Source: Cylindrospermum stagnale PCC 7417 (lineage in GTDB: Bacteria > Cyanobacteriota > Cyanobacteriia > Cyanobacteriales > Nostocaceae). Taken from it: a stretch of 64,000 nucleotides of DNA. Positions 40,611 through 64,000 of the stretch are shown in pieces. Position 1 is the first letter of the stretch; each line of letters begins with the position of its first letter. The stretch lies in the NCBI RefSeq assembly GCF_000317535.1, contig NC_020050.1:1-64000 (forward strand), read 5' to 3'. A program made the position numbers and the translations under genes. A model generated the notes under the pieces. The model was not told where the DNA came from. It made no database searches and saw only the letters and a program-made list of their open reading frames with translations.

Positions 40611-40624
40611 AAATCAATTTATTG

Positions 40625-43600: not shown

Positions 43601-46600
43601 GTTGATTACTATAATTCTATGGCCAGTCAAGGTACTTGGTTAAATTATGAAAATGTGACAGTTCAATATGATGAAACTTTTCTAACCTTTGCTCCTTTTG
43701 CGGAAATTATACCAGGATTTTCTTGGGTTAAACTGGTTTCTGACCCCAAAAAACATAACCAGTATCTGTCTATTGTTTTCAATGGTCAAAAGGAATTACG
43801 GGAAGTTCTCTTTGCTAAAGTTGATTTTCAAGCTTGTGAAAAAGTGTTAGATTTTGGATGCGGCTACGGGTCAGATTTGATATCTTTGGCAAAACAGTTC
43901 CCACATCTTCAACATCTCTGCGGTTACACTATTTCCAATGAACAAGCGAAGGTAGGGCAAAATAAGATTTTGGCTAGCGGTTTGCAAGAGCGAATCACAA
44001 TTTATAATCGGGATAGTGCCCAAGATGAATTCCCAGAACAATACGATTTAATTTTTGCTTTTGAAGTTCTACACCATATCAAACGCAAGGATTTATTATT
44101 TTCTAATGTCAATAGACATCTTAATGACAAAGGGTTATTGGTCTTAGCAGACTTTATCTCCAATCAAGGTTTTGCTATTGAACATGAAGAAACATCATCC
44201 TATTTTATTAACAAATCTGAATGGTTGGAAAAGCTTAACCAAAATCAGCTTAAAGTAATTGAGGCTATAGATGTAAGCCAGGAAATGGCAAACTTCCTGT
44301 ATGACCCTGACTTTGAAGAAAATTTAGCTCAGAAAAGTATTGCTGGAAATCAAGATATTCAATCAGCATTTACTTCCTACCATCAGTTAGGGAATTTGAT
44401 GCGTAAGAAAATGGCTATTTATATCCTACTTACGGCTCAAAAAGATACAGAATTATCATCAGAAGAACTCTCTAGCTGGAATCTAGAAAAACTTAATTCT
44501 TTAGTAGCTTACTCTGAAAAAGCTCCCCAGCAATGGCTTTATCAAATTGACTGGCAACCTCAACCCCTTATAGAAGTAAAACAGCAAAAATCCCAGCTAG
44601 AATCAGGAATATGGCTGATTTTTGCTGATATTGGGGGAGTAGGTCAAAGATTAGCACAACAACTGCTCCAACAAGGTGAAGATTGTATTCTTATCTATCC
44701 TGGAGAAACCTATCAAACTAAAGAGATTGGACAATGGGAAATTGTGCCAAGTGATTCAGAAAACTATAAACGATTGCTTAAAGATATTTCAAAGATTGGA
44801 TTGTCTTTTAAAGGAATAGTCCATTTATGGAATTTAGACACTTTTGAAGTTGAGCCGTTAACTTTATCCAGTTTACAAGATACTCAAACACTTAACTGTG
44901 GTAGTGTACTTTTTCTCGTACAAGCCTTGGTGAAAGAAGAAAATTTACACGTAGACCGTTTATGGTTAGTGACAAAAGCTGCTCAAAAAGTACAAGATTT
45001 ATCAACTCCTTTGCAGATACAACAATCTCCATTATGGGGATTAGGAGGAGCAATCTCTCGTGAACATCCTGAACTACATTCAGTTTGTTTAGATATTGAG
45101 CCTCATGAGAATTTTAATGAAGTGCAAGTACTACTAAAAGAGATACTCTCGTTCAGTCAAGAAGACCAGATTGTCTATCATCAAGACACTCGATATGTTG
45201 CAAGACTGGTTCGACATCCTTACCCTAGTGTCCACCAGCCTCAAATCCACAAAAATAGTAGCTATTTAATTACTGGTGGACTAGGGTCTCTTGGACTCCA
45301 GATAGCTCAGTGGTTGGTAGAACAAGGGTCTCGCTATTTAATCTTGACTGGACGCAATCAACCTTCCATATCTGCACAAAAAATTATCAGTGAACTTGAA
45401 CAGTCAGAAGTCAAAATTTTAGTTATTCAGGCGGATATTTCTTCACCTAAATCGGTTGAGGATATGTTGAAAACGATTAAGACTGCTCTGCCTCCTCTAC
45501 GTGGAGTAATTCATGCCGCAGGAGTCTTAGATGATGGTGTACTTATGGAGCAAAATTGGGAGCGTTTTCTTGATGTTATGACTCCTAAAGTTGCTGGAGC
45601 TTGGAATTTACACCATTTAACTCAAGACTTACCATTAGATTTCTTTGTGCTTTTCTCTTCTGCTGTTTCCTTACTTGGTGCTCCTGGACAAGGAAACTAC
45701 GCTGCTGGTAATGCTTTTATGGACTTCTTAGCTCATTACCGTCAAACCTTAGGCTTACCAGCCTTGAGCATTAATTGGGGCCCCTGGAGTGAAACAGGGA
45801 TGGCAGCTCAAACCAATTTTTCCGCTCTAAAACTAGGAATGATTCCTCCACAACAAGGCTTAAAAATTTTAGGAGATTTATTAGGACAAAATTTTACTCA
45901 AGTTGGTGTATTACCTGTAAATTGGGCTGAATTCTTAAAACAATTTCCTGCTGACAATGAGCCGCTTCGCTTTGAAAAATTCATCAAGGAACAACGGCAA
46001 GCACAATTAGAACAAGCACAACAATTGCCAAATCAGCCTTTTGATTTATTAGGCCAACTACAAAATACCTCTGAAGAACAGCGCCTAGAATTATTAATCG
46101 AATACATTAATCATCAAGTCAATAAAGTACTTGGAATTTCAAAAGAGCAGCCTCTAGAACAGCACGAAAAATTTCAGAACTTAGGGATTGACTCCCTAAT
46201 GGCACTTCAGTTAAGAAATTTTCTGGAAATTGCTCTTAATATCTCTTTACCTTCAACTTTGATAGTGAAATATCCTACTATCAATCAGTTATCTACATAC
46301 TTATGTCAAACTTTGTTTAGTGATAAGAAACAACTCAAGGTTATTGAAGATACTCATCAATTAAAGTCTGAGCAAAATCCTTGGATTACTTCTCTACAAG
46401 CTAATCCAGACGCTGAGATACGTTTGTTCTGTTTCCCGTATGCAGGTGGTGGCATTTCTATGTTTCGCCCCTGGTCAGTAGAGCTACCTCAAAAAATTGA
46501 AGTTTGTCCCATTCAATTACCAGGAAGAGATGAACGTTTACATGAAAAACCATTTAGAGATTTTTCAAAATTAGTTGATGTGCTAGTTCAAGGTTTAAAG

Positions 46601-47143
46601 CCGGAATTAAAAATGCCATTTGCTTTCTTTGGTCATAGCATGGGAGCTTTACTAGCTTTTGAAGTTGCTCGCCTATTACAAAAAGGTTATCAAATAACTC
46701 CTGTTCATTTATTCATTTCTGCTTGTCCAGCCCCTCATTTGTCAGAGTCTTTGCTATCTCTTCCCAACCCTACAGCTTCTGATGAAGAAATAATAGCGCA
46801 ATTACACCGTTTCAATTCAATGCCAGAGTCGATTGTACAAAAAACGAACTTAATACTTGATGTATTACCAACTTTCCGAGCTGACCTTGAAGTTTTTAAA
46901 AGCTATAATTATTCGACTATAGAATCATTAGATTGCCCAATCACTGTTTTTGGAGGTAAGCAAGATACTTTAGTATGCTATGAGCATTTAATCCCTTGGC
47001 AAACTCAAACTAGGAGTTCATTTGACATAAAAATGTTTACAGGGAATCATTTCTTCTTACAAAGTCAGCGCTCAATGCTTTTACAGTCTATCGCAGAGTT
47101 AATGATCAACCACATTAGCAGCGGGAGCAACGCGATTTGGTGA
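40625..47143 (+). CDS. Type I PKS: KS-AT-cMT-KR-ACP-TE
   Basis: About 2,170 residues, one extension module with release. KS from about 38, Cys in VQTACSTSLVAVH near 218 and His in VEAHGTGTFLGDP. AT with GHSVGEYVAACVAE near 669 and HAFHSH near 774, the malonyl-CoA type. C-methyltransferase with VLDFGCGYGSDLISLAKQ near 1,075. KR with TGGLGSLGLQIAQW near 1,550 and Tyr in GNYAAGNAFMDF. ACP Ser in LGIDSLMALQLRN near 1,855. Thioesterase with CFPYAGGGISMFRPW near 1,936 and GHSMGALLAFE near 2,004, of the GrsT/type II fold but fused. Predicted step: add malonate, methylate the alpha carbon, reduce to a hydroxyl and release. ATG 40,625 follows the loader by 14 bases; ATG 40,697 is an alternative. Confidence 0.93.
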   Translation: MCAINKISNSDHSNLQRTIIKKKNMNVFTQNDLGNGLEIAIIGTSCRFPGAQNPDEFWQNLKNGVESITWFSESDLKSEGVEPNLFNHPNYVKANGILSDIEKFDADFFGFSPREAAIMDPQHRLFLECAWECLEQAGYNPKNHQESVGVFAGAGMNLYAGVGMTSYFLHNLYPNRDNLTPWDGFQIMIANGVEFLPTRISHLLNLKGPSVNVQTACSTSLVAVHLACQSLLNGECDMALAGAVAIHQPQKIGYLYQEGMILSTDGHCRAFDKKAQGTIGGNGVGVVVLKRLADAIADRDCIQAVIKGSAINNDGATKVSYTAPSVSGQATVIAMAQAVADISPETISYVEAHGTGTFLGDPIEIAALTQAFRRKTEKKGFCAIGSVKTNIGHLDTAAGMAGLIKTVLALKYKEIPATINFENPNPQIDFYNSPFYVNTQLSPWKTNDLPRRAGVSSLGVGGTNAHIILEETPLLENNDNQVERSLHLLALSAKSEKALKELVQRYITFCTTEKEISLGDICFTANVGREHFNHRLAIVTDSTSELQKNLTEFIAGIASPVLFNGSVTSKQEKAIAFLFTGQGSQYINMGRELYETQPTFRRYLDQCADILRPYLERPLLEVIYPQTTLDNLSLLNETAYTQPALFAIEYALYQLWKFWGIEPKFVMGHSVGEYVAACVAEVFSLEDGLKLIAQRGRLMQALPANGKMLVIFAGETQVNTILQLHSNNISIAAINGPENTIISGEKEAIELIKTDLENLGIKTQELKVSHAFHSHLMDSILADFEQIASEVTYYPPSIPLVSNVTGELMSSDIASSRYWTRHIRETVRFESSIKVLEQLNCEIFLEIGPKPTLLSMGTNCLPGNTKTWLFSLRQTESCWRSMLSSLSHLYLHGVSVNWKGFDQDYRRYRVILPTYPFQRKRYWIDAPTQELATVKQSAVLKFLNQGNINQLANMLTSTGDFSSEQQQILPKLLETLVQKYQEEQEYTNRKVVVDYYNSMASQGTWLNYENVTVQYDETFLTFAPFAEIIPGFSWVKLVSDPKKHNQYLSIVFNGQKELREVLFAKVDFQACEKVLDFGCGYGSDLISLAKQFPHLQHLCGYTISNEQAKVGQNKILASGLQERITIYNRDSAQDEFPEQYDLIFAFEVLHHIKRKDLLFSNVNRHLNDKGLLVLADFISNQGFAIEHEETSSYFINKSEWLEKLNQNQLKVIEAIDVSQEMANFLYDPDFEENLAQKSIAGNQDIQSAFTSYHQLGNLMRKKMAIYILLTAQKDTELSSEELSSWNLEKLNSLVAYSEKAPQQWLYQIDWQPQPLIEVKQQKSQLESGIWLIFADIGGVGQRLAQQLLQQGEDCILIYPGETYQTKEIGQWEIVPSDSENYKRLLKDISKIGLSFKGIVHLWNLDTFEVEPLTLSSLQDTQTLNCGSVLFLVQALVKEENLHVDRLWLVTKAAQKVQDLSTPLQIQQSPLWGLGGAISREHPELHSVCLDIEPHENFNEVQVLLKEILSFSQEDQIVYHQDTRYVARLVRHPYPSVHQPQIHKNSSYLITGGLGSLGLQIAQWLVEQGSRYLILTGRNQPSISAQKIISELEQSEVKILVIQADISSPKSVEDMLKTIKTALPPLRGVIHAAGVLDDGVLMEQNWERFLDVMTPKVAGAWNLHHLTQDLPLDFFVLFSSAVSLLGAPGQGNYAAGNAFMDFLAHYRQTLGLPALSINWGPWSETGMAAQTNFSALKLGMIPPQQGLKILGDLLGQNFTQVGVLPVNWAEFLKQFPADNEPLRFEKFIKEQRQAQLEQAQQLPNQPFDLLGQLQNTSEEQRLELLIEYINHQVNKVLGISKEQPLEQHEKFQNLGIDSLMALQLRNFLEIALNISLPSTLIVKYPTINQLSTYLCQTLFSDKKQLKVIEDTHQLKSEQNPWITSLQANPDAEIRLFCFPYAGGGISMFRPWSVELPQKIEVCPIQLPGRDERLHEKPFRDFSKLVDVLVQGLKPELKMPFAFFGHSMGALLAFEVARLLQKGYQITPVHLFISACPAPHLSESLLSLPNPTASDEEIIAQLHRFNSMPESIVQKTNLILDVLPTFRADLEVFKSYNYSTIESLDCPITVFGGKQDTLVCYEHLIPWQTQTRSSFDIKMFTGNHFFLQSQRSMLLQSIAELMINHISSGSNAIW

Positions 47144-50609: not shown

Positions 50610-51624
50610 CAGCACTTGCGTCTGTTATGAGGTACACTAAATTAAAATATAAATACCTTTAAATGAAGTCATACTCTGTCGAGTTTCGAGAAAAAATAGT
50701 TGCAGCACATCTTCAAAAAAACATCTCAATCAGGAAAGTAGCTAACATATTTTCCGTCTCAAAGAGTTTAGTGCAAAAGCTTGTAAAGCAACAAAAACTT
50801 GAAGGAAATTTACAACCAAAGCCGCGAGGGAAACCACAATTTAGTCATTTAACAAATGCGGAAGTAGAGTTAAGGGAATTAGTTGAAGCACATCCAGATG
50901 CAACATTGATAGAGTTATGTGAATTCTTGGCAGACAAGACTGGTAATTGGGTGGGTCGAAGTGCAATGTGTCGGGCCTTACAGAAATTAGGATTAAATCG
51001 TAAAAAAAAACAAAGCGGAGTACCCAAGCCGGGACTCTTAGAGTCTTAAATTTAAGATTAGATTATTGGGAAAAGGTCAAACATATAGAGCCAGAAAATT
51101 TAGTATTTTTGGACGAAACTGGCGTTCTACTTGGGTTAACGAGGACTCATGCCCGTTCACAAATGGGAACAAGAGCTTACTCTCTTAACCCCTTCTATAG
51201 AGGTTCAAAAGTTACAGTAATTGGAGCAATTAGTATTAACAAAGTAGTTGCATTAATGACAATGAATAATTCAATGGATGGCAGGGCATTTGAATTATTT
51301 GTTGAGAAGTTTTTAGTGCCAAATTTATGGTCAGGAGCAGTAGTAGTCATGGATAATTTATCCGCACATAAACTAGATTCAATTGTGCTAATGATTGAAG
51401 CTGTAGGCGCGAAAGTTATTTGTTTATCCTCATACTCTCCCGATTTTAATCCAATTGAATTATGGTGGTCACAACTTAAATCTTTTCTACGCCGTTTCGC
51501 TCCAACTACAACGGAAATGGTTGATAAACTAATCTCAGTTGCACTCGACTTAATAAATCCTCAACAATTAAGAAACTGGTTTGCTAGTTGCTGCTACTGT
51601 ACCTCATAATAGCCGGAAACGCTG
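50610..51624 (+). mobile_element. IS630-type insertion sequence
   Basis: 1,015 bp flanked by TA. The ends share cagc(a/g)(c/t)tt.cg..ct, then tatgaggtaca 16 bases in: left cagcacttgcgtctgttatg, right (inward) cagcgtttccggctattatg. TA target and the DDE transposase fit IS630/Tc1. Three MITEs in this window have the same end design. Confidence 0.85.
50663..51609 (+). CDS. IS630-type transposase made by -1 frameshift
   Basis: Two overlapping frames. The first (50,663-51,049) carries helix-turn-helix domains: YSVEFREKIVAAHLQKNISI, RKVANIFSVSKSLVQKLVKQ. A run of nine A (51,002-51,010) follows, and a -1 slip joins it to KTKRSTQAGTLRVLNL and the catalytic frame. The DDE residues are Asp in VFLDETGVLLG, Asp in VVMDNLSAHK and Glu in SPDFNPIELWWSQLK. 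Slippage on a poly-A run is known in some IS630 members, so this element may be functional rather than broken. Confidence 0.78.
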
Positions 51625-51692
51625 TATCAAAAACAGCAACAGTTAGTTTCACATCACAATGCGAATTACTGTGATGAAACAAATTGCCAGGT

Positions 51693-52009
51693 CATGAGCA
51701 AACAACTTGTTCGACTACCGAAAGTTGGTAAAACAGAAAAACTTAAACGTCAAACGTCAATCACCTAACTCTCGCAAATATTCCGAGGTCAGGACTAGGG
51801 AGCATTTGTTACCGGAAAAAGTTGAGGCGATGCGGTCAGCTATCAAAAAATCTAAGTGTCGCCACGCTCATCGAGACTCGACCCTAATTTTGTTGATCTA
51901 CCGTCATGGATTGCGAGTGGCAGAGGCAGCATCTTTACGATGGGAGCAAATAGACTGGAATGGTGGCACAATTTATGTGAAGCGAGTCCAAAAGGGGACG
52001 CTATCGTGA
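51693..52009 (+). pseudogene. Tyrosine recombinase, N-terminal fragment with 7-bp duplication
   Basis: Reads MSKQLVRLPKVGKTEKLKRQ from ATG 51,693, then shifts frame and continues SPNSRKYSEVRTREHLLPEK and the catalytic-domain start LILLIYRHGLRVAEAASLRW. The shift is explained exactly by a tandem copy of aaacgtc (aaacgtcaaacgtcaa). The homology stops at YVKRVQKGT (about 51,998), where IS110-like sequence begins, so the His-x-x-Arg and Tyr part is gone. Confidence 0.8.
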
Positions 52010-52094
52010 ACGCACAGTTAATAATCTCCAAAAAAGAGCGCAGCAATTAGGTTTTGTGCTTATTCCTCAGCCCTCAGAAAATCTGGTTTCTTAG
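51999..52094 (+). pseudogene. IS110-type transposase, C-terminal scrap
   Basis: In the frame of base 51,999 the DNA reads RYRERTVNNLQKRAQQLGFV then LIPQPSENLVS and stops. This matches the C-terminus of IS110-family transposases (compare LKNLRQKAQALGLELIPI at the end of the copy at 52,359). A former IS110 element therefore truncated the recombinase. Confidence 0.6.
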
Positions 52095-52343
52095 AAGCAA
52101 CTGCACAGGCGGCACTGCCACCCGCTATGAATGAAAGAAACTATTTTGAGGCGACTAATGAACGGGTACATTAGAATTATCCTGACAGTTAAAACCGAAC
52201 CCACAATAGTGTGTTGAGCCTGATTAGGAGAATGGTTCTGGGGCTTTATGGCTATGACATTGGTGAAGGACAAAGTTTCCTATCCCGTTTGAAAGATTAT
52301 CTATGAGTACATCCCCAGGTCAGGACATATCCATAATAACCAT
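52095..52343 (+). other. Non-coding 5' region of the IS110 element
   Basis: No supported gene. In IS110-group elements the non-coding DNA before the transposase gene encodes a structured guide (bridge) RNA. This stretch contains several short complementary segments, but I cannot fold it reliably by eye. Confidence 0.3.
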
Positions 52344-52358
52344 ATGAGAGTTGCAGCC

Positions 52359-53754
52359 ATGAAATTGCCACTCGTTCAAGGGAATAACCAGCCTGTCCCT
52401 GTAGAAAAAGTATCATCCACTTTAGAAGAAATTAACCAGAACGCAGCAGGAATAGACCTTGGTAGTGGAGAACATTGGGTTTGTGTCCCCACTGATAGGG
52501 CAGATAAAAATGTTCGCCGATTCGGATGTTTTACTCCTGATTTAATTGCAATGGCCGATTGGTTAATGGAATGCCGCGTAGATACAGTGGCAATGGAAGC
52601 CACAGGAGTTTATTGGATTCCAGTGTTTCAGATTTTAGAAGCCAAGGGTTTTGAGGTCAAATTAGTTAATGCTCATCACGTGAAAACAGTCCCTGGGCGC
52701 AAAACAGATGTGTTAGACTGCCAGTGGTTACAAAAGTTACACACCTATGGATTACTGTCTAGTTCTTTTCGTCCGGAAGACCAAGTTTGTGTTCTACGCA
52801 GTTATATCCGTCAACGAGACACTTTAATCAAAAGTGCTAGTGCCCATGTACAACGGATGCAAAAAGCACTCATCCAGATGAATTTACATCTCCACAAAGT
52901 CATCAGCGATGTGACTGGTTTGACTGGAATGAAGATTATCAAAGCAATCGTTGCTGGCGAACAAGACCCACAAGTTTTAGCATCCCTCAAAGACCCACAC
53001 ATCAAAAGTAGCACAGCAGATATTGCTGCATCTTTAACTGGTGATTACCGCCGTGAACATTTATTTGTTCTCCAGCAAGAATTGACCTTGTATGAGGTTT
53101 ACCAACAACAGATTACTGCTGTTGACGCACAAATCGAAAAATGTTTAGCATCTTTTGAACCTAAGACTTTAGATGAACCGCCAATAAAGGGAAGAAAACG
53201 CCGGAAAAAACCGACTGCAAATCACCCAAATTTTGATTTACATAAGTATCTCTATCGGATGGCAGGAGTTAGATTTTATACTCATTGATGGTCTTGATGC
53301 TTTAACTGTTCAGACCATTTTATCTGAGGTGGGATTAAACCCAAAACGCTTTCCTACAGTTAAGCACTTCACATCTTGGTTGGGTTTATGTCCTGGTCAA
53401 AAGGTCACTGGCGGTAAGGTTAAAAGCTCTCAAACTCGTACTGTTGTCAATCGCGCTGCCAACGCTTTTCGCATGGCGGCTTTTTCCCTGACTCACAGTC
53501 GTTCTGCTTTGGGTGCATTTTATCGCCGCTTACGTTCTCGCTTGGGGGCACCCAAAGCAATAACTGCTACTGCACACAAATTGGCTCGTTTGTTCTACCG
53601 ACTCTGGACAAAGAAGGGAGAATATTCTGATCCTGGTATGGACTATTATGAGCAAAAATACCAGGAACTGATTCTCAAAAACCTCCGACAAAAAGCTCAG
53701 GCTCTTGGTTTGGAACTTATTCCTATTTCTCTCCCCACCGAATGTGTTTCTTGA
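52359..53754 (+). pseudogene. IS110-family transposase, frameshifted
   Basis: DEDD-type transposase. The N-terminal RuvC-like domain shows AAGIDLGSGEHWVCVP, VAMEATGVYWIPVF and VNAHHVKTVPGRKTDVLDCQ with the catalytic acids. The coiled-coil middle follows (SAHVQRMQKALIQMNL), and the C-terminal Tnp2 domain starts GLDALTVQTILSEVG and carries the serine region (FTSWLGLCPGQKVTGGKVKS). One extra base near 53,268 (after YRMAGV) shifts the frame, so the whole enzyme is not made. The start could be ATG 52,344 or 52,359. About 250 bases of non-coding DNA precede it, the place where IS110-group elements encode their bridge RNA. Confidence 0.82.
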
Positions 53755-54429: not shown

Positions 54430-54540
54430 AAGTCAAGTCTTACACTCATAGCTAAACCCAGAATTGCGAAGAACTTTGAAGTGACAAAGATATAGCAATA
54501 GTTATTGGTGAATGAAACAAGTTTGTGTAATAGAACTCAC

Positions 54541-56397
54541 ATGATTATTAATGTAGATCATTCCCCGCACAGTCTGCCTAAAGTTGCTACTTTAATAGCT
54601 ATTCTTCGGTATAGAGCATTACACCAACCAGACTTTAGAGGCTATACATTTTTGGAAAACGGAGAAAAAGAATCAGACTGTCTGACTTATCAACAATTAG
54701 ATAAAAAGGCACGGGCGATCGCAGCCCAATTACAGTCCTTTTTAGCTCCTAGTGAACGGGCTTTACTGCTTTACCAGCCTGGGTTGGAGTTCATTTCTGC
54801 GTTCTTCGGATGTTTATATGCTGGGGTTGTGGCTGTTCCTGCTTATCCACCCCGACAGAATCAGTCATTATCTAGATTGCAAGCGATTGTGTCAGATGCC
54901 CAAGTGTCACTGACGCTGACCACTCAATCTCTTTTAGCTAATATAGAGAAGCGGTTGGCTAAGAATCCGGAATTAGGCGCTGTGCAATGGGTAGCTACCG
55001 ATAACCTCAACAGCGACTTGGCGTCAAACTGGCAAGAACCGACTTTGTGCGAGAGTGACCTGGCTTTTCTCCAATACACTTCAGGTTCTACTGGAACACC
55101 GAAAGGGGTAATGGTGAGTCATGGTAATCTGTTGCACAATCAGCGAATGATTGAAAAGGCTTTTGGGCATACAAAAGAAACTATTTTTGTAGGTTGGTTG
55201 CCCTTATTCCATGACATGGGACTGATTGGGAATGTGCTGCAACCATTGTATTTAGGTATATCATGCATTCTCATATCGCCAGTAGCATTTCTACAGAAGC
55301 CTTTGCGCTGGCTGCAAACAATTTCCCGCTACAAAGCGACGACTAGTGGTGGACCCAATTTTGCTTATGACTTATGTGTTCGCAAAATTACTCCTGAACA
55401 GCGCTCTACTCTTGATTTGAGCAGATGGGAAGTGGCTTTCAATGGATCTGAACCTGTCCGTGCAGAGACATTGGCAGAATTTACAACCACTTTTGCATCT
55501 TGTGGTTTTCGTGACGAAGCGTTTTACCCTTGCTACGGGATGGCTGAGACAACCTTATTTGTTTCTGGGGGTTTGAAAACAGCTTTGCCAACAGTACTCT
55601 GTGTTGATGGAACAGCTCTTGAACAAAATCGGGTTGTAGCAGTTAGTAATGAGTATAAAGATGGCCGGAAAATTATTGGCTGTGGTCATACTTGGTTAGA
55701 GCAGAAAATTGTGATCGTTGATCCCAATTCTTTAACCTTGCGTCGTGCTGACCAAGTAGGAGAAATTTGGGTTCATGGTTCTTCTGTTGCTGGTGGCTAT
55801 TGGAATCGACCCGATCTGACCCAACAAACTTTTAACGCACAACTACAAGATACTGATACTGAATCAAAACCATTTTTACGCACTGGAGATTTAGGATTTT
55901 TGCACGATGGTGAATTATTCATTACAGGGCGACTTAAAGATGTAATAATTATCCGAGGAAGAAATTATTATCCTCAGGATATTGAACTAACAGTAGAGAA
56001 GAGTCATCCAGCACTGCGACCTAGTTGTGGATCTGTTTTTACGATTGAGGTAAATGGAATTGAACAGCTGGTTGTTGTTCAAGAGTTAGAACGGAGTTAT
56101 TTACGAAAATTAGACACCAGTGAGGTGCTGAGAAATATTTGCCAAGCGATAACAGCAGAATATTCTCTACAGATTTATAGCATCTTACTGATTAAGACTG
56201 CAAGTATCCCTAAAACTTCTAGTGGTAAGATTCAACGTCAAGACTGTCGATCTAAATTTCTAGTTGGAGATTTGGATGTTGTCAGTGAATGGAGTGAAAA
56301 TCCTCGGCATCAAGTCAAATTTATGAATTTGCAGTCTGATATCGAATTAACTTTGAACCAATTATCATCTGTCAGCAGTGAGAAAAGTAAGTTTTAA
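54541..56397 (+). CDS. Fatty-acyl-AMP ligase (FAAL)
   Basis: 618 residues. FAALs activate free fatty acids as acyl-adenylates and pass them to an acyl carrier protein. Marks of the subfamily: AGVVAVPAYPPRQNQSL near 100, LQYTSGSTGTPKGVMVSHGN near 180, FVGWLPLFHDMGLIG near 220, YPCYGMAETTLFVSGG, RTGDLGFLHDGELFITGRLK and the C-terminal Lys in TSSGKIQRQDC. I chose ATG 54,541; a TTG at 54,505 would add 12 residues. The next genes are its ACP and a dimetal halogenase-like enzyme on the same strand. This FAAL-ACP-CylC order is that of CylA-B-C in cylindrocyclophane. The IS5 fragment lies about 110 bases upstream, so the native promoter may be altered. Confidence 0.93.
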   Translation: MIINVDHSPHSLPKVATLIAILRYRALHQPDFRGYTFLENGEKESDCLTYQQLDKKARAIAAQLQSFLAPSERALLLYQPGLEFISAFFGCLYAGVVAVPAYPPRQNQSLSRLQAIVSDAQVSLTLTTQSLLANIEKRLAKNPELGAVQWVATDNLNSDLASNWQEPTLCESDLAFLQYTSGSTGTPKGVMVSHGNLLHNQRMIEKAFGHTKETIFVGWLPLFHDMGLIGNVLQPLYLGISCILISPVAFLQKPLRWLQTISRYKATTSGGPNFAYDLCVRKITPEQRSTLDLSRWEVAFNGSEPVRAETLAEFTTTFASCGFRDEAFYPCYGMAETTLFVSGGLKTALPTVLCVDGTALEQNRVVAVSNEYKDGRKIIGCGHTWLEQKIVIVDPNSLTLRRADQVGEIWVHGSSVAGGYWNRPDLTQQTFNAQLQDTDTESKPFLRTGDLGFLHDGELFITGRLKDVIIIRGRNYYPQDIELTVEKSHPALRPSCGSVFTIEVNGIEQLVVVQELERSYLRKLDTSEVLRNICQAITAEYSLQIYSILLIKTASIPKTSSGKIQRQDCRSKFLVGDLDVVSEWSENPRHQVKFMNLQSDIELTLNQLSSVSSEKSKF

Positions 56398-56503
56398 AAA
56401 GTAAGTTTTAATTAGTTTAGCAATCGCTAAACTAATTAAGTATTTCTAAAAAAACGTCAAAACGAAGGACATACTTGTTAGTAAAATAAACGGAGATGAA
56501 AAA

Positions 56504-56839
56504 ATGGTTGAATTTTTGAATTTTCAAATGAGTAACTCTGATTTAGAGACTAATAATGCCTATCACGTGGAAGCCTCACCTGAAAAGCTTAAGACTACAG
56601 CAGAAATTCAAGCGTGGTTAGTGTCCTACCTAACAAATGTATTAAAAATTAATCCAAATGAGATTGATGTTACACTTCCCTTTGACTGCTACAACATGGA
56701 TTCTGCGTCTGCCATTGGATTGAGTGGAGAGATAGAGGAATGGCTTGAATGCGAATTTGAACCAACTTTGCTGTACGATTATCCAACTATTGAAGCTTTA
56801 ACAAAGTATTTAGCTAACAGCTTATCTATTAAGCAGTAA
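56504..56839 (+). CDS. Stand-alone acyl carrier protein
   Basis: 111 residues. After an unstructured 35-residue lead-in the ACP helix bundle starts with TTAEIQAWLVSYLTNVLKIN, and the phosphopantetheine Ser is in YNMDSASAIGLSGEIEEW near 69, followed by YDYPTIEALTKYLANS. It holds the fatty acyl chain made available by the FAAL so that the next enzyme can act on it. A good ribosome site (ggagatgaaaaa) precedes the ATG. It lies about 105 bases after the FAAL. Confidence 0.92.
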   Translation: MVEFLNFQMSNSDLETNNAYHVEASPEKLKTTAEIQAWLVSYLTNVLKINPNEIDVTLPFDCYNMDSASAIGLSGEIEEWLECEFEPTLLYDYPTIEALTKYLANSLSIKQ

Positions 56840-56890
56840 GTTTTTGATAAAAACCGAAATAAAAATTAAGTATTTGATAAGGTGAAAACA

Positions 56891-58261
56891 ATGCAAAATG
56901 TCAACAGCGATCCAAACACAAGTATACCAAATCCCAAATTTACTGTAGAAAAGGAAATCAAACGTATTAAAATTGTTGAAAATAACTACCAGAATAACCT
57001 GAATTCTGACTACACTGAGAAAATTAAGGAGCTAGACCACAATTTCAAATATGAAGAACAAAGTAAATATTATTGGAATCCTCCTGAACTTTCACTTCTT
57101 TACGGAACACCCTTTTATGAAGTTGCTTCTTCATCTCAAAAAATAGCACTTAATCATCAATTTTGGATGTCAAACTATAGCCTTACCGCTTATAGTGAAA
57201 TGGAAACAATTGACTATAACCTAATAACAGCAGATTGTTTCTCTGCTTTAGGCGGTAATTATAAAATTCTTGCTGAACAGCTTGAGCATGAAGCGGCTCA
57301 AGAACGTATTCATATTCATGCTTTTTTCAAAGTTAATTTCCAAACTTTGAAAAATTTGTTAGGCAAGCAAGCTTTTACTAATATTTTGCTGGAAAACAAG
57401 CCTGCCAACAATAGTCAAATAAATTTGCAAATTGCAAATTTTCAGTATCATAGTCTACGCTTTTTATCGACCCTAATTTCCTATAAAAGAAAACATTATG
57501 TCTCTCCTTATTTTAAAAAAATAGAAGCCAAAAATAAATTATCTGTAACGACTACTAATGGTTTTTTCCATGGATACGGAATGCTTCCTTCTTTTTTTAT
57601 CCGATTCTTTGCATCTAGTTGGGGCAGTTCACCCTTCTTAGCTAGCCAATATTATACGTTACGTTATCTTGCTAATATGCTTTTGAAGAATCAAGAACAT
57701 ACTATATATTTATATTTCAAAAAACTTCAGAAGCAAGGCGAGTATGTTCCAGTACCAACTGCTATCTCCCACTACCACTTTTTAGATGAATCTTTCCATA
57801 CAACGACATCTTTATTCCTAGCTCGAGATTTACATAAGAACTTCCCAGCGCCAACTGCTTACGAAAAATTTCTGGTTAATTGGGCAGTTTATGTCATTCA
57901 AAAGACTAACCTTAGCCATATATCGGGAGTAATCAAGAATCGCTTTTTTGGAGATGATTTATCGGGTATGTTCTATATTTATAAGGTGTTTAGGAGCTCT
58001 TTATTTAATCTGTCTCACGAAGAAGCCGTTCAATGGGTTGAGAAATGTTTCTGTCAAGAACACGAAGGTTTTCATCAGTCAGTTAAATGCCACCAGCGTC
58101 TTCATTTAGAAATACGTAAACTTTGTGAGAATCTCGACTATCTATGGCCAATTAACCGCGAAATGCGTCTCATGGCTTCAGGAGGAACGGTTGGCAGAGC
58201 TATTAGAAATAATATCAAGACATTCAAACAGTTCTCTAAGTTAGTTGCTTCAGCTGAGTGA
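56891..58261 (+). CDS. CylC-like dimetal-carboxylate halogenase/oxygenase
   Basis: 456 residues with no cofactor-binding loop of flavin halogenases. It has the spaced carboxylate/histidine pairs of AurF-like diiron enzymes: LEHEAAQERIHIHAFF, FLDESFHTTTSL and QEHEGFHQSVKCH, on long helices. Its size, style and position right after FAAL and ACP match CylC, the cylindrocyclophane enzyme that chlorinates an unactivated carbon of an ACP-bound decanoyl chain. Relatives occur in several cyanobacterial lipopeptide clusters; some may oxygenate or desaturate instead. ATG 56,891 follows aaggtgaaaaca; a GTG three codons earlier is possible. Whether it chlorinates cannot be decided from sequence alone. 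Confidence 0.82.
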   Translation: MQNVNSDPNTSIPNPKFTVEKEIKRIKIVENNYQNNLNSDYTEKIKELDHNFKYEEQSKYYWNPPELSLLYGTPFYEVASSSQKIALNHQFWMSNYSLTAYSEMETIDYNLITADCFSALGGNYKILAEQLEHEAAQERIHIHAFFKVNFQTLKNLLGKQAFTNILLENKPANNSQINLQIANFQYHSLRFLSTLISYKRKHYVSPYFKKIEAKNKLSVTTTNGFFHGYGMLPSFFIRFFASSWGSSPFLASQYYTLRYLANMLLKNQEHTIYLYFKKLQKQGEYVPVPTAISHYHFLDESFHTTTSLFLARDLHKNFPAPTAYEKFLVNWAVYVIQKTNLSHISGVIKNRFFGDDLSGMFYIYKVFRSSLFNLSHEEAVQWVEKCFCQEHEGFHQSVKCHQRLHLEIRKLCENLDYLWPINREMRLMASGGTVGRAIRNNIKTFKQFSKLVASAE

Positions 58262-58358
58262 TAGAATCACCAATCAGTGGGATAGCATCTTTGCAGTCCG
58301 TAGAAATATACTTAGCCTTTGAAGCAGTTGCAGGTACGTAAATTATCGTAGGTCTGAA

Positions 58359-61300
58359 ATGGAAGCTATAGCGATTATAGGCATTGGCTGTCGTTTTCCG
58401 GGTGCTAACCACCCAGAAGCCTTCTGGCATCTACTAAGAAACGGTGTGGACGCCATTACTGAGGTGCCATCAGAGCGATGGGATATTGATACCTTATACG
58501 ATCCAAAACCGGTTACACCGGGAAAAATGAATACCCGCTTTGGCAGTTTTCTAGAGCAGGTAGATCTGTTTGCTCCTAGATTCTTTAGGATTTCCCCCCG
58601 TGAGGCAGAGCGAATGGATCCGCAGCAAAGGCTAATTTTAGAGGTAGCCTGGGAAGCTTTAGAAAATGCTGGACTAGCACCAGACAAACTAGCTCAGAGC
58701 CAGACGGGGGTTTTCATGGGCATCAGCAGCTATGACTATGGCGTTTTGCAAGTCAAGGATTTAGAAAGTATAAATGCTTATAGTGGCACGGGAAACGCTT
58801 TTAGTATTGCTGCCAATCGTCTGTCGTACTTGCTGGATCTGCATGGACCAAGTGTGACAATAGATACTGCTTGCTCTTCTTCATTGGTTTCACTACATTA
58901 CGCTTGTCAGAGTTTGCAGATTGGAGAGTCTGAGCTTTGCTTGGTTGGAGGTGTGAACCTGATTTTATCTCCAAGTCTAAATATTGTTTTCTCGCAGGCA
59001 GGTATGATGTCAGCAGATGGGCGTTGTAAAACTTTTGACGCTAATGCTGATGGTTATGTCAGAGGCGAAGGCTGTGGTGTACTTGTCCTCAAACGTCTTT
59101 GGGAAGCTCAAAGAGATCAAGACAATATTCTGGCAATTATCAAAGGTTCAGCAGTTAACCAAGATGGTCTTACCAATGGACTTACAGCTCCTAATGGTCT
59201 TTCTCAACAAAGAGTTATCCGTCAAGCCTTAAAAAATGCTGGAGTAACACCAGCGCAGATTAGTTATGTTGAAACCCACGGCACTGGTACCCCTTTGGGA
59301 GATCCCATTGAGATTAGAGCTCTAAAAGCTGTGCTAATGGAGGGTCGTTCTTTAGAGCAGCCTTGTTATATTGGTTCAGTTAAAACTAATATTGGTCATT
59401 TAGAAGCTGCTGCGGGAATTGCTGGACTGATCAAGGCGGTACTTTCACTACAACATAAAGAGATTACACCGCACTTGCACTTGCAGCAACTGAATCCATA
59501 TATTTCTTTTGAAGGAACTCCGTTTTCGATTCCAACTAAACGCCAACCTTGGATTGCTGGTACAGAAAAACGTTTAGCAGGGGTAAGCTCCTTTGGCTTT
59601 GGTGGTACCAATTGCCATGTGATTCTTGAAGAAGCGCCTGCTGTGACTTTCTCCCCTAACGATCTTGAACGCAAAATGCACCTGTTGACACTTTCGACAA
59701 AAAGTGAGGACGCGCTACAGGAATTGGCACAGAGTTATGTAGATTTTGTCAGGTTTCATCCTAAAGCATCACTGGCAGACATTTGCTTCACTGCTAATGT
59801 CGGGCGATCGCACTTCAACCACCGCTTGGCAATTGTCACTGAATCTACTACACAGTTGATCGAGCAACTAACTGCTTTTACTACTGGCAAACAAGCATCT
59901 GGAGTTATTAATAGAACTGTAGAGATTGCGAATCGCCCTAAGATAGTATTTCTCTTCACAGGGCAAGGCTCTCAGTATCATGCGATGGGACGCAAGCTCT
60001 ATGAAACTCAACCCACTTTCAGGAAAATATTGCAGCAATGCGATCAACTCCTGAAACCCTATTTAGACCAGTCATTGCTTGAAATACTGTACGGTACGAC
60101 TGAGACAGCTCATTTGTTAAATGAAACTGCCTATACCCAACCAGCTCTGTTTGCTCTAGAATATGCTCTTGCTGAATTGTGGCGTTCTTGGGGAATTGTA
60201 CCAGATGCTGTCATAGGTCACAGTGTAGGTGAGTATGTTGCTGCATGTGTAGCTGGGGTATTCAGTCTGGAAGATGGACTTATGCTCGTTGCAGAACGCG
60301 GTCGGTTAATGCAGTCTTTGCCACATAATGGTGAAATGGCTGTGGTCTTTGCCGAACAAGAGAAAGTAGTTAACATTCTTACTCAGTATGAAAAAGAGCC
60401 GTCAGGAGTATCAAGGGAAATTAGTATATCCATTTCTGCTGTTAACGGACCAAACAACATCGTTATTTCGGGTTTAAAAGAATACGTGCAGTCGGCTGTT
60501 GAGCAGTTTCAGTCCCAAGGGATTACCGTAAAGCCTTTGCAAGTTTCTCATGCTTTCCACTCACCACTGATGGAGCCGATTCTTGATAAATTTGAGTCTA
60601 AAGCAGCAACAGTAAACTTTCAAGCCCCACAAATTGCTTTAATTTCTAACCTGACAGGTGAAATTTTTAAGTCAGGAGAAATCCCAGATGCAAGTTATTG
60701 GCGTCGCCACCTGAGAGAACCAGTGCAATTTGCGGCGGGAATGAACGCCCTAGCAGAACAAGGTAATAAAGTATTTCTCGAAATTGGTCCTCGCCCTACT
60801 TTATCAGGTATGGGTAAACGATGCTTACCGAAGGTAAAAAGTATTTGGCTACCTTCATTACAGTATGGGCAAGATGATTGGCAGGTTTTATTGAACAGCT
60901 TGGGGATATTAGACACTCAAGGAGTAGAAGTCAATTGGGTGGGATATGACCGCGACTACCAACAACATAAAATTTCTTTGCCCACTTATCCTTTTCAGCG
61001 TAAACGTTATTGGTTTGAGTCGGACGAAGAGAGAAACATCAATTTTATGGATTTGAAAAACTCAGATACACAACTAGTGAAACCACAGCTTAATACTGTG
61101 CAAAAAAGCATATATAAAGATAAAATAATATCAAAATTATGTACTCTTGTAGCTGGTTTACTCCAAACAGACTCGTCAGAAATTAATGTCTATATGCCTT
61201 TTTTAGAAATGGGTGCAGATTCAATAGTTCTGATTGAAGCTGTTAGAACTATTGAAAATACCTTTGGAATCAAGGTGACTATTCGCCAGATGTTTGAAGA

Positions 61301-64000
61301 GTTAAAAAATATTGACAGTCTTGCAAGTTATATAGATAAAAATCAGCCCAAAGTTGCGATCAAGGAAAAATCAACAGAGCCTGAAATTATCGCTCAAAAT
61401 CAGCCCAACCAAACTATTCAGGAAAATGCCCTAGAACCTGAAATTGCAATTGGCACATTACCTCAACTCTCACAACCAGCTCCTCCGACTGTAGCTGAGA
61501 AGTCTACATCTGTGCTTGAGAGCAGGTTAGTAAATAAAACATCAGTAGTTGAAACAGGACTTGAGCGAATTATGGCTCAACAACTACAACTTACGTCTCA
61601 AGTCATATCTCAACAATTGCAGTTATTACAAAACAATCGTGTTGTATCATCAACAAATGAGTCACAAGTAAGATTCATCACAACCCCAAAGCCAGCAAGT
61701 CCAGCAAACAATGCGGTTAAAGGAACAGGAACTCAAGAACCTTTAAATTTGGAAAGAATCACAGCGAAAGGAGCGGAAGGGCTAAATTCTAAACAACAGC
61801 AACATCTAAAAGCATTGGTTGCACGTTATACCAAGCGCACACAAGGGTCAAAACGAGCAAAGCAATCTTATCACCATGTTCTAGCTGACAGCAGAGCTTC
61901 GGCTGGATTTCGTCCTTCCATCAAGGAAATGGTTTACCCTATTGTTTGCGATCGCTCTCAAGGCTCTAAGTTTTGGGACGTGGATGGTAACGAGTATGTA
62001 GACATCACAATGGGGTTTGGTGTGCATCTGTTTGGTCACAATCCGCCCTTTGTCATAGAAGCTTTACAGGAGCAGATAAAACTTGGTACACAATTAGGTC
62101 CCCAATCCAGTCTAGCGGGCGAAGTGGCAAAGTTGTTGTGCGAACTGACTGGTCTAGAACGCGTCACCTTTTGTCAGTCAGGTACAGAAGCCGTAATGAC
62201 ATCACTGCGTTTAGCACGAACGGCAACAGGACGCACGAAGATTGTCCTATTTTCAGGTTCTTATCATGGGCATTTTGATGGGGTTTTAGCTAGAGCACAA
62301 GCATCAGATGACAAGCAGGTTTCTGTCCCGATGGCTCCTGGTATATCGCCACACATAGTTGAAGATGTTGTGGTACTCGATTATGGCGATCCTAGTGCAT
62401 TAGAGTATATTGAAGCTCATGCTCATGAATTAGCTGCGGTTTTAGTTGAACCCGTACAGAGTCGGCGACCCGATTTACAACCCAAAGAGTTCTTGCAGCA
62501 CTTGAGGCAAGTCACCGCAAAAGCAGGTACAGCCTTGATTTTCGATGAAATCATCACTGGCTTTCGCATTCATCCAGGCGGCGCACAGGCACACTTTGGT
62601 GTGAAAGCAGACTTGGCAACTTACGGTAAAATTTCTGGTGGAGGTCTGCCGTTTGCAGCAGTAGCTGGTAAGGCTACTTTGATGAATGGCATTGATGGTG
62701 GGCAATGGAACTATGGTGATGATTCGTATCCTGATGCAGAAAGGACATTTTTTGCAGGTACTTTTAACAAATATTCTCTGGCTTTGGCGACCGCAAGAGC
62801 GGTACTTAAGCATCTTAAAAACCAGGGAGCAAGTCTTCAAGAGCAATTAAATCAACGCACAGCACAGTTAACAAAGACACTCAATGCCTTCTTTGAACAA
62901 GAGCGTGTGCCTATTCAAGTGGTTTATTTTGGCTCGCTGTTCCGCTTTAGCTTTAAGAAGAACTTAGATTTGTTTTTCTACCACTTAATTGAGAAAGGTA
63001 TCTACGTTTGGGAAGGGCGCACCTGTTTTCTGTCCACAGCGCATACAGATGCTGATATTCAGTATGTGATTCAGGCTGTGAAAGAGAGCATAGTCGAGAT
63101 GCAAGCAGGAGGTTTTTTACCTAAACGCTCACCCAACTTGAATGGATCTGCAAGCAATTCGCCGAATTCATTCTTAACTAAGAGTTCTACTCCTGAAGCT
63201 GCTATTTTTCCACAAACGACTACAATGGCTGCTGGGGGTATCGTAGAACCTGTAAATGTTCCTCAAACATTCACATCATTAACAACAGTCCCTGATTCTG
63301 ATGAAGTAGTATCTGATGCTGCAATTACAGTCTCCTTAACAGAAGCACAAAAACAACTCTGGGTTTTAGCGCAAATTTCAGAAGAAGCATCGAGTGCTCA
63401 TAACGTCTCTATAAATCTGCAATTACGTGGTTCGTTGAATTTAACAGTACTACATCAAGCAGTACAGAAAGTTGTAGAGCGTCACGAGGGTTTGCGAACG
63501 ACTATCGATAGCCAAGGGGATTTTCAGCAGATATTGCCATTCTTGAAAGTTGATATTCCTTGCATTAACTTCTCAAATGTTGATAGTTGTGAGCGTGAGT
63601 CTAAAGTCGCTGATTGGTTTAAACAAGAAAGCCTAAAACCTTTTGACCTAACTCAAGCACCTCTGTTCCGTTGTTATGTTCTTAAATTAGAAGAACAGCT
63701 ACATCTACTAGTTATGACAGCTCATCACATTGTCGTCGATGGCTGGTCAATAAACGTTATTCTGCAAGAATTAGGTGCATTGTATTCACAACAGTGTCAA
63801 GGTGAAGTTGATCAACTCAAGCCACCGATGCAATTTAGAGAATACATTAATTGGCAGGAGCAGCAAAGTCAAACTGAGGGAATGGCAGCCCATGAATCCT
63901 ACTGGTTGGAAAAATTTACTAGTTCGACTCCTGTTTTAAACCTGCCAACAGATCGTCCTCGTCCTCCAATAAAAACCTATAGAGGTAGTAGGCAAACGCT
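58359..64000 (+). CDS. Hybrid PKS/NRPS: KS-AT-ACP-aminotransferase-C (partial)
   Basis: Open to the window end (1,880 codons seen, no stop). KS: Cys in TIDTACSSSLVSLH near 172, His in VETHGTGTPLGDP. AT: GHSVGEYVAACVAGV near 618 and VSHAFHSPLMEP near 730, malonyl-CoA type. ACP: Ser in MGADSIVLIEAV near 951. Long linker, then a PLP class III aminotransferase (about 1,180-1,580) with QSGTEAVMTSLRLART, SGSYHGHFDGVLA, LIFDEIITGFR and the PLP Lys in TYGKISGGGLPF near 1,423. Condensation domain from about 1,657 with TAHHIVVDGWSINV near 1,789. There is no KR, so the beta-keto group is left for transamination: the classical route to a beta-amino fatty acid (mycosubtilin, microginin, puwainaphycin). 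The C domain should join it to an amino acid encoded beyond the window. Start ATG with weak ribosome site. Confidence 0.93.
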   Translation, partial: MEAIAIIGIGCRFPGANHPEAFWHLLRNGVDAITEVPSERWDIDTLYDPKPVTPGKMNTRFGSFLEQVDLFAPRFFRISPREAERMDPQQRLILEVAWEALENAGLAPDKLAQSQTGVFMGISSYDYGVLQVKDLESINAYSGTGNAFSIAANRLSYLLDLHGPSVTIDTACSSSLVSLHYACQSLQIGESELCLVGGVNLILSPSLNIVFSQAGMMSADGRCKTFDANADGYVRGEGCGVLVLKRLWEAQRDQDNILAIIKGSAVNQDGLTNGLTAPNGLSQQRVIRQALKNAGVTPAQISYVETHGTGTPLGDPIEIRALKAVLMEGRSLEQPCYIGSVKTNIGHLEAAAGIAGLIKAVLSLQHKEITPHLHLQQLNPYISFEGTPFSIPTKRQPWIAGTEKRLAGVSSFGFGGTNCHVILEEAPAVTFSPNDLERKMHLLTLSTKSEDALQELAQSYVDFVRFHPKASLADICFTANVGRSHFNHRLAIVTESTTQLIEQLTAFTTGKQASGVINRTVEIANRPKIVFLFTGQGSQYHAMGRKLYETQPTFRKILQQCDQLLKPYLDQSLLEILYGTTETAHLLNETAYTQPALFALEYALAELWRSWGIVPDAVIGHSVGEYVAACVAGVFSLEDGLMLVAERGRLMQSLPHNGEMAVVFAEQEKVVNILTQYEKEPSGVSREISISISAVNGPNNIVISGLKEYVQSAVEQFQSQGITVKPLQVSHAFHSPLMEPILDKFESKAATVNFQAPQIALISNLTGEIFKSGEIPDASYWRRHLREPVQFAAGMNALAEQGNKVFLEIGPRPTLSGMGKRCLPKVKSIWLPSLQYGQDDWQVLLNSLGILDTQGVEVNWVGYDRDYQQHKISLPTYPFQRKRYWFESDEERNINFMDLKNSDTQLVKPQLNTVQKSIYKDKIISKLCTLVAGLLQTDSSEINVYMPFLEMGADSIVLIEAVRTIENTFGIKVTIRQMFEELKNIDSLASYIDKNQPKVAIKEKSTEPEIIAQNQPNQTIQENALEPEIAIGTLPQLSQPAPPTVAEKSTSVLESRLVNKTSVVETGLERIMAQQLQLTSQVISQQLQLLQNNRVVSSTNESQVRFITTPKPASPANNAVKGTGTQEPLNLERITAKGAEGLNSKQQQHLKALVARYTKRTQGSKRAKQSYHHVLADSRASAGFRPSIKEMVYPIVCDRSQGSKFWDVDGNEYVDITMGFGVHLFGHNPPFVIEALQEQIKLGTQLGPQSSLAGEVAKLLCELTGLERVTFCQSGTEAVMTSLRLARTATGRTKIVLFSGSYHGHFDGVLARAQASDDKQVSVPMAPGISPHIVEDVVVLDYGDPSALEYIEAHAHELAAVLVEPVQSRRPDLQPKEFLQHLRQVTAKAGTALIFDEIITGFRIHPGGAQAHFGVKADLATYGKISGGGLPFAAVAGKATLMNGIDGGQWNYGDDSYPDAERTFFAGTFNKYSLALATARAVLKHLKNQGASLQEQLNQRTAQLTKTLNAFFEQERVPIQVVYFGSLFRFSFKKNLDLFFYHLIEKGIYVWEGRTCFLSTAHTDADIQYVIQAVKESIVEMQAGGFLPKRSPNLNGSASNSPNSFLTKSSTPEAAIFPQTTTMAAGGIVEPVNVPQTFTSLTTVPDSDEVVSDAAITVSLTEAQKQLWVLAQISEEASSAHNVSINLQLRGSLNLTVLHQAVQKVVERHEGLRTTIDSQGDFQQILPFLKVDIPCINFSNVDSCERESKVADWFKQESLKPFDLTQAPLFRCYVLKLEEQLHLLVMTAHHIVVDGWSINVILQELGALYSQQCQGEVDQLKPPMQFREYINWQEQQSQTEGMAAHESYWLEKFTSSTPVLNLPTDRPRPPIKTYRGSRQT

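Follow-up and report, generated by a model that had tools for sequence, protein, structure and literature searches.

Results

Genes at the opening of the cluster

The window examined in this work covers positions 1 to 64,000 of contig C4 (431,821 bases) of Cylindrospermum stagnale PCC 7417, whose 7.61 Mb genome is assembled in four contigs. Its last 9.5 kb hold the opening of a predicted lipopeptide cluster of about 46 kb (contig 54.5-100.6 kb), in which four open reading frames (ORFs) follow one another in one direction on the forward strand. The first, a fatty acyl-AMP ligase (FAAL), opens at 54505 (TTG), has its first ATG at 54541 and runs to 56397. It is matched by AMP-binding (5.3e-66), whereas the FAAL models score high but stay under their cut-offs. 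Its closest solved relatives are FAALs and not CoA ligases, the best being 7r7g (1.9e-197), and the top solved matches at E <= 1e-40 are 7r7g/e/f, 3kxw, FadD23, FadD32 and FadD28; the 7r7g/e/f entries are named polyketide synthase, and we take them to be FAALs. A stand-alone acyl carrier protein (ACP) follows (56504..56839; PP-binding, 7.5e-13), and then a 459-aa CylC-like protein (56882..58261), a predicted dimetal-carboxylate halogenase on the basis of homology, residues and tree.

The fourth ORF, gene 1 of the polyketide synthase/non-ribosomal peptide synthetase (PKS/NRPS) line, extends from 58359 to contig position 66569 and encodes 2736 aa. Its domains are ketosynthase (KS; 58359..59483, motif DTACSSS), malonyl-type acyltransferase (AT; 59946..60926, GHSVGE and HAFH), ACP (61134..61334, GADSI), class-III aminotransferase (AMT; 61935..63011, Pfam 4.1e-57, YGKISGGG) and condensation (C; 63327..64000, HHIVVDG), the last continuing past the window with adenylation (A) and peptidyl carrier protein (PCP) domains to 66569. 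The best solved match of the AMT is mycosubtilin synthase A (6kfm, 3.2e-162). A Pfam scan of the 2736 aa gave no match to a ketoreductase (KR), dehydratase (DH) or enoylreductase (ER). This arrangement, KS-AT-ACP followed by a class-III aminotransferase and C in the absence of KR, is that of a beta-amino acyl module, and locus L086 has the same order.

These results bear out the initial annotation, which had described the row FAAL, ACP, CylC-like and KS-AT-ACP-AMT-C, signature motifs and a PKS devoid of ketoreductase: ORFs and domain matches confirm the row, the motifs of the KS, AT, ACP, AMT and C domains proved intact and the scan agrees on the KR. It had also suggested looking for A-PCP modules past position 64,000; gene 1 does end with A-PCP, and further modules lie downstream.

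The CylC-like protein

Few of the dimetal halogenases, enzymes that chlorinate unactivated carbons, have been tested. The CylC-like protein has 9/9 of the residues essential in the halogenase NocO: E106, Q140, E141, H144, E272, H299, D302, E303 and H306, all encoded on the forward strand. E106 (57197..57199), which we presume to be rightly placed by its spacing to the QExxH motif against E101 of AurF, is E in 91/91 aligned rows. The HxxDExxH motif (H299, D302, E303, H306; 57776..57799) is identical in 91/91 rows, as is QExxH (Q140, E141, H144; 57299..57313), a motif named in PMC12101540. E272 (57695..57697) was equated with NocO E252 by its equal spacing to HxxDExxH. Among the nine residues the rows differ only here: the position holds Gln in 6/6 distant homologues versus Glu in 85/85 others, so that all nine NocO residues are kept in 85/91 rows. 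We therefore rejected the nine-residue signature as a separator of all CylC homologues, since 8/9 residues are common to the six distant rows and E272 alone differs. One of the homologues with Gln lies in the same genome (C2, about 2.307 Mb), and Rieske genes adjoin both distant loci inspected (the C2 copy and G073) out of the six.

Relatives of the protein occur in 54/388 genomes of the class at E <= 1e-10. At E <= 1e-100 the gene is found in one of three genomes of the genus, the window's own, the two Brasilonema strains discussed below falling outside this count. A contig scan yielded 302 pattern matches and 165 relatives, the best 80 of which were retained and correspond to 79 loci. The tree of 91 rows came from a quick search with SH-aLRT support only and includes six picked distant homologues. 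It groups the window protein with those of Brasilonema angustatum HA4187-MV1 and Brasilonema sp. CT11 (100%). The next clade, of 12 rows (99%), includes Pelatocladus, Fischerella, Coleofasciculus, Symploca and Moorena SIO3H5, and we know of no tested member in it. Moorena bouillonii PNG carries two copies in tandem, and one of them joins in a wider clade of 21 rows (97%). The Microcystis (microginin) halogenases stand in another clade, and orthology of the CylC-like enzyme with the microginin halogenase is thus unsupported by the tree. The six distant rows are separated at 100%, with the window protein among the FAAL/ACP-linked members. The nearest relatives outside Brasilonema, in Pelatocladus (L042) and Fischerella PCC 9431 (L043), lie beside a FAAL and two KS-AT genes, and no AMT was found within 10 kb of them. 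A literature search returned no paper joining Brasilonema with CylC.

The protein reaches Pfam AurF below the cut-off only (24.7 vs 29.6 bits) and no NCBIfam model matched it. Its predicted structure is a ferritin-like diiron fold that matches AurF, CmlI, R2 and, further down the Foldseek ranking, stearoyl-ACP desaturase; Foldseek alone gave no match at E <= 0.001, and a PDB profile search with the CylC family none up to E = 1. The fold, predicted to be AurF-like, weighs against reading the protein as a halogenase, as does the fact that most CylC homologues are untested and that the Rieske-containing clusters are linked to no known product (PMC8406957). The enzyme could then be an oxygenase or desaturase, acting by hydroxylation, desaturation or N-oxidation, and the tail would be oxidized rather than chlorinated. 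The initial annotation had named a grouping with desaturases or oxygenases as the outcome that would speak against halogenation; in our tree, which holds no AurF-type, desaturase or N-oxygenase rows, the protein falls instead in the FAAL/ACP-linked CylC clade. It also has Q140 in place of the Asp of AurF and keeps all nine NocO residues. Finally, the tested enzymes CylC and NocO chlorinate, and NocO gave no detected hydroxylated product. We regard an oxygenase or desaturase as unlikely, and chlorination by the CylC-like enzyme as the activity to which sequence and tree position point.

The FAAL-ACP-CylC-AMT combination in other loci

The opening combination is not novel: it is that of microginin, and 10 of the 79 loci, LEGE 91341 among them, carry FAAL, ACP, CylC and AMT, the AMT being >50% identical and within the flanking stretch. 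The ten loci belong to Brasilonema (two), Microcystis (three, including LEGE 91341), Desmonostoc, Scytonematopsis, Hydrococcus, Chroococcidiopsidaceae and Trichormus. Three AMT proteins were scanned with Pfam: that of LEGE 91341 (2734 aa) has the same domain order, that of Scytonematopsis the same order plus an extra C, and that of Trichormus also has a luciferase-like monooxygenase. Two Chroococcidiopsidaceae loci, L081 and L129, which we treat as a single contig of 39,496 bases on the strength of their equal length, carry FAAL-ACP-CylC-KS-AT-AMT-C-A on one strand, with NRPS, MFS and CmlA-like genes on the other.

The closest known counterpart is the microginin cluster (mic) of Microcystis aeruginosa LEGE 91341. 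The available text of PMC12250027 describes micA as a FAAL, micB as an ACP, micC as a dimetal halogenase and micD as KS-AT-ACP-AMT. As here, FAAL, ACP and halogenase are followed by KS-AT-ACP-AMT-C-A-PCP in one gene, of 2734 vs 2736 aa. The two systems differ in other respects. Their halogenases are 43-44% identical and belong to different clades, and the Microcystis KS falls in an 8-row clade (90%) that does not include the KS studied here, whose deeper placement the tree leaves open. According to the same text, only NRPS modules, a thioesterase (TE) and a methyltransferase come after micD, which does not match the downstream genes found here: two more PKS modules, CmlA-like and FkbH/I/J/K-type genes and separate ATs, none of them named in that description.

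The KS tree (65 of the 79 loci plus the window; again a quick search with SH-aLRT only) places seven of the other eight AMT loci in that 8-row clade, to the exclusion of the Brasilonema KS. The AMT state changes at least four times on the KS tree and at least five times on the CylC tree; in this count an AMT beyond the short flank is scored as missing, and L118, the longest KS row, is itself an AMT row. Since neither the halogenase tree nor the KS tree groups Brasilonema with microginin, the pairing of halogenase and beta-amination has probably been assembled more than once.

The downstream assembly line

The novelty of the line lies past its opening, where its make-up is the more unusual. In contig positions, gene 1 is followed by KS-AT-KR-ACP (66562-71244), TubC_N-C, which is broken (71412-72527), A-PCP-C-A-PCP (72865-78066), a CmlA-like diiron beta-hydroxylase (78172-79773; PF18456, 3.6e-97), C-A-PCP-C-A-PCP (79834-86436) and a terminal module KS-AT-KR-ACP-TE (86487-91691). 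Next come MFS (91666-93009), MbtH (93086-93322), a 3-hydroxyacyl-CoA dehydrogenase (93573-94427; domain 3HCDH, scanned in the CT11 ortholog), a small ACP (94480-94731; PP-binding), an acyl-CoA dehydrogenase (from 94773; ACAD), an FkbH-type protein (95970-97043; TIGR01686, 279.5 bits for a cut-off of 146.65), AT-ACP (97136-99031) and a stand-alone AT (99350-100615), after which we recognized transposase-like ORFs by eye.

The whole cluster, from FAAL to stand-alone AT and over 46 kb, is syntenic in CT11 and HA4187-MV1. Protein identities range from 82 to 99% (FAAL, 93% with CT11 and 86% with HA4187-MV1; stand-alone ACP, 97% and 99%), but the module-3 NRPS is only 65% identical. The A domains follow a different pattern. 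Module-1 A of the window strain is 90% identical to the A of its own last NRPS and 62-63% to module-1 A of the relatives, while its module-3 A shares 90% identity with their module-1 A. Under the A-domain code mapping that we assume, the predicted substrate of module 1 is Gly here and Ser in the two relatives.

In the window strain the C domain of module 3 contains frame changes and stops at about 72,517-72,888, and the Pfam match spans positions 3-292 of the 456 in the profile; in both relatives the gene is one ORF of 2241 aa. Moreover, a 278-aa ORF present in both relatives between the NRPS and CmlA-like genes (PhyH-type in CT11) is missing here, and on either side of the cluster lie ORFs that look transposase-like by eye. 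All this counts against a functional line in this strain. As the module-3 C domain is broken and the A domains have moved, the product is doubtful here, and the full compound may not be made. It may even be that the cluster is a decaying remnant and that only the relatives make the compound, a situation compatible with a working lipopeptide line in those relatives; we give this possibility serious weight, short of an even chance. On the other side, the cluster's remaining large ORFs are open, which also makes a real break likelier than poor assembly, although an assembly error at this point may be involved. In addition, an altered product is possible because the broken stretch coincides with the A-domain exchange. 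The break falls at the switch in A-domain identity between strains and is likely a recombination scar.

The terminal module and its extender unit

In 3/3 strains the AT of the terminal module keeps GYSTGE and has lost its mid-domain, including HxxH. The stand-alone AT has, also in 3/3 strains, MCL at the RXR site together with HAPH and GHSLG. The RXR site reads TVK, NYR/NCR or ACR in the other ATs, the AT-ACP protein having GYSIS, ACR and HAFH. FkbH-type protein, ACP, acyl-CoA dehydrogenase and 3-hydroxyacyl-CoA dehydrogenase form the gene set for hydroxymalonyl- or methoxymalonyl-ACP, and all four are present in the cluster. The zwittermicin system, whose full gene set we presume, likewise has FkbH-type, acyl-CoA dehydrogenase, 3-hydroxyacyl-CoA dehydrogenase and small ACP genes, ZmaD and ZmaE appearing in the available literature. 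No O-methyltransferase (FkbG type) was found among the cluster proteins scanned, to which the search was confined; a hydroxymalonyl rather than a methoxymalonyl extender is therefore tentatively favoured.

According to the available text of PMC4207774, the hydroxymalonyl-ACP-specific ZmaA-AT has MCM and GAAH, and hydrophobic RXR residues are proposed as the mark of ATs for ACP-tethered units; OzmC and ZmaF are discrete ATs for such units (PMC6164871, from the part available). The MCL of the stand-alone AT is hydrophobic, like the MCM of ZmaA-AT, as expected of an AT for ACP-tethered extenders. Against this assignment, it does not have the GYSxG of ZmaA-AT and ZmaF in any of the three strains, and presents GHSLG and HAPH instead of GYSFG and GAAH. 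A further difference from zwittermicin, OzmC and ZmaF is that the separate AT would here serve a module whose own AT is truncated. Literature searches on hydroxymalonyl, acyltransferase and cyanobacteria gave no title on a cyanobacterial cluster, and none joined beta-amino fatty acid with methoxymalonyl.

Discussion

From the genes, domains and motifs, observed directly together with their synteny in two relatives, we infer every chemical step of the line, chlorination included. FAAL would adenylate a fatty acid and load it onto the ACP, where the CylC-like diiron enzyme would chlorinate the bound acyl chain at an unactivated carbon. KS-AT would add one malonate, AMT would aminate the beta-keto group, and C-A-PCP would attach an amino acid (Gly-type here, Ser-type in the two relatives) to the resulting beta-amino acyl chain. 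A malonate/KR extension, more NRPS modules and the CmlA-like beta-hydroxylase would follow. At the terminal KS-(dead AT)-KR-ACP-TE, the stand-alone AT would act in trans to load hydroxymalonyl-ACP made by the FkbH/I/J/K-type enzymes, and TE would release the product. We consider such a hybrid PKS-NRPS lipopeptide line, with FAAL/ACP loading, chlorination, beta-amination, peptide and a trans-loaded hydroxymalonyl terminal module, the probable reading of the cluster. The order that the initial annotation had put forward, from activation through halogenation on the ACP, one malonate extension and transamination to peptide coupling, fits the sequence evidence.

The chlorine may be added only to be removed or displaced later, giving a final lipopeptide without it. 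There is a precedent that speaks for such cryptic halogenation and against a chlorinated end product: in cylindrocyclophane biosynthesis CylK consumes the alkyl chloride made by CylC (PMC12101540). The scanned cluster proteins were, however, all assigned to other families, no search having been aimed at CylK, and microginins, which have the same opening, can keep chlorine: LEGE 91341 yielded mono-, di- and non-chlorinated microginins (PMC12250027, available text). Retention of the chlorine is thus preferred, cryptic halogenation being quite improbable.

Other known systems share parts of this line. Locus L055 of M. bouillonii PNG, which we take from strain and gene order to be the columbamide cluster, has FAAL, ACP, CylC-like and PKS genes, with one CylC copy in the same 21-row clade, but it carries two halogenases and no AMT in the stretch examined. 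The closest solved structure to the AMT comes from mycosubtilin synthase, of the iturin family; in this family FAAL, PKS, AMT and NRPS are united in one gene (PMC4219810, available text), whereas here FAAL and ACP are separate genes and a CylC-like gene lies between. The puwainaphycin cluster (puw) has a separate FAAL and ACP and a PKS-AMT-NRPS hybrid gene for the beta-amino acyl starter, as here, but also the PuwE monooxygenase between AMT and NRPS and the reducing, methylating PKS PuwB, neither of which was seen in our cluster. PMC4219810, the source for this cluster as well, reports no halogenase in C. alatosporum itself, and CylC homologues are reported from puwainaphycin/minutissamide clusters in what is available of PMC8406957. 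Lastly, the kasumigamide cluster (kas), also present in M. aeruginosa NIES-87, combines a CmlA-like hydroxylase (KasD) with a PKS-NRPS line, but starts with A-KR-PCP and shows no FAAL, halogenase or AMT in its gene table (PMC5061366, available text).

Two further PKS regions of the genome deserve mention. At 36261-47143 the window contains an A-KR-ACP gene followed by KS-AT-CMT-KR-ACP-TE, presumably resembling hapalosin-type lines. Transposase-like and recombinase-like ORFs, judged by eye, lie between the two PKS clusters (50663-53754). Because this PKS has its own TE and transposase-like ORFs intervene, its belonging to the lipopeptide line is unsupported. CT11 has 36 predicted clusters, one of them 60% similar to that of hapalosin, and the lipopeptide cluster is not described in the available text of the same article (PMC7503407). 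On C2:2206001-2226000 (L139) the genome holds a second FAAL-ACP-CylC-PKS cluster; the KS-like, HMG-CoA synthase-like and enoyl-CoA hydratase genes that come after it resemble a beta-branching cassette.

We tentatively propose that the cluster represents a new lipopeptide type, although the case falls somewhat short of even: a chlorinated beta-amino acyl tail linked by a peptide to a terminal polyketide unit with an alpha-hydroxy (or alpha-methoxy) group, halogenase and beta-amination having been paired independently of microginin. An otherwise cis-AT line would be patched at its last module, because the AT of this module is dead, by a separate AT delivering hydroxymalonyl-ACP. With a separate AT next to a module whose own AT is dead, delivery of an ACP-linked extender in trans can be put to the test here. 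As the predicted halogenase adjoins a beta-amination module, it comes with a clear guess at its substrate, the acyl chain on the ACP encoded at 56504-56839, and with a product class to seek. If it holds beyond the six picked rows, the Glu or Gln at position 272 may mark FAAL/PKS-linked versus Rieske-linked CylC homologues. The movement of A domains between modules of such close relatives shows how lipopeptide sequences change.
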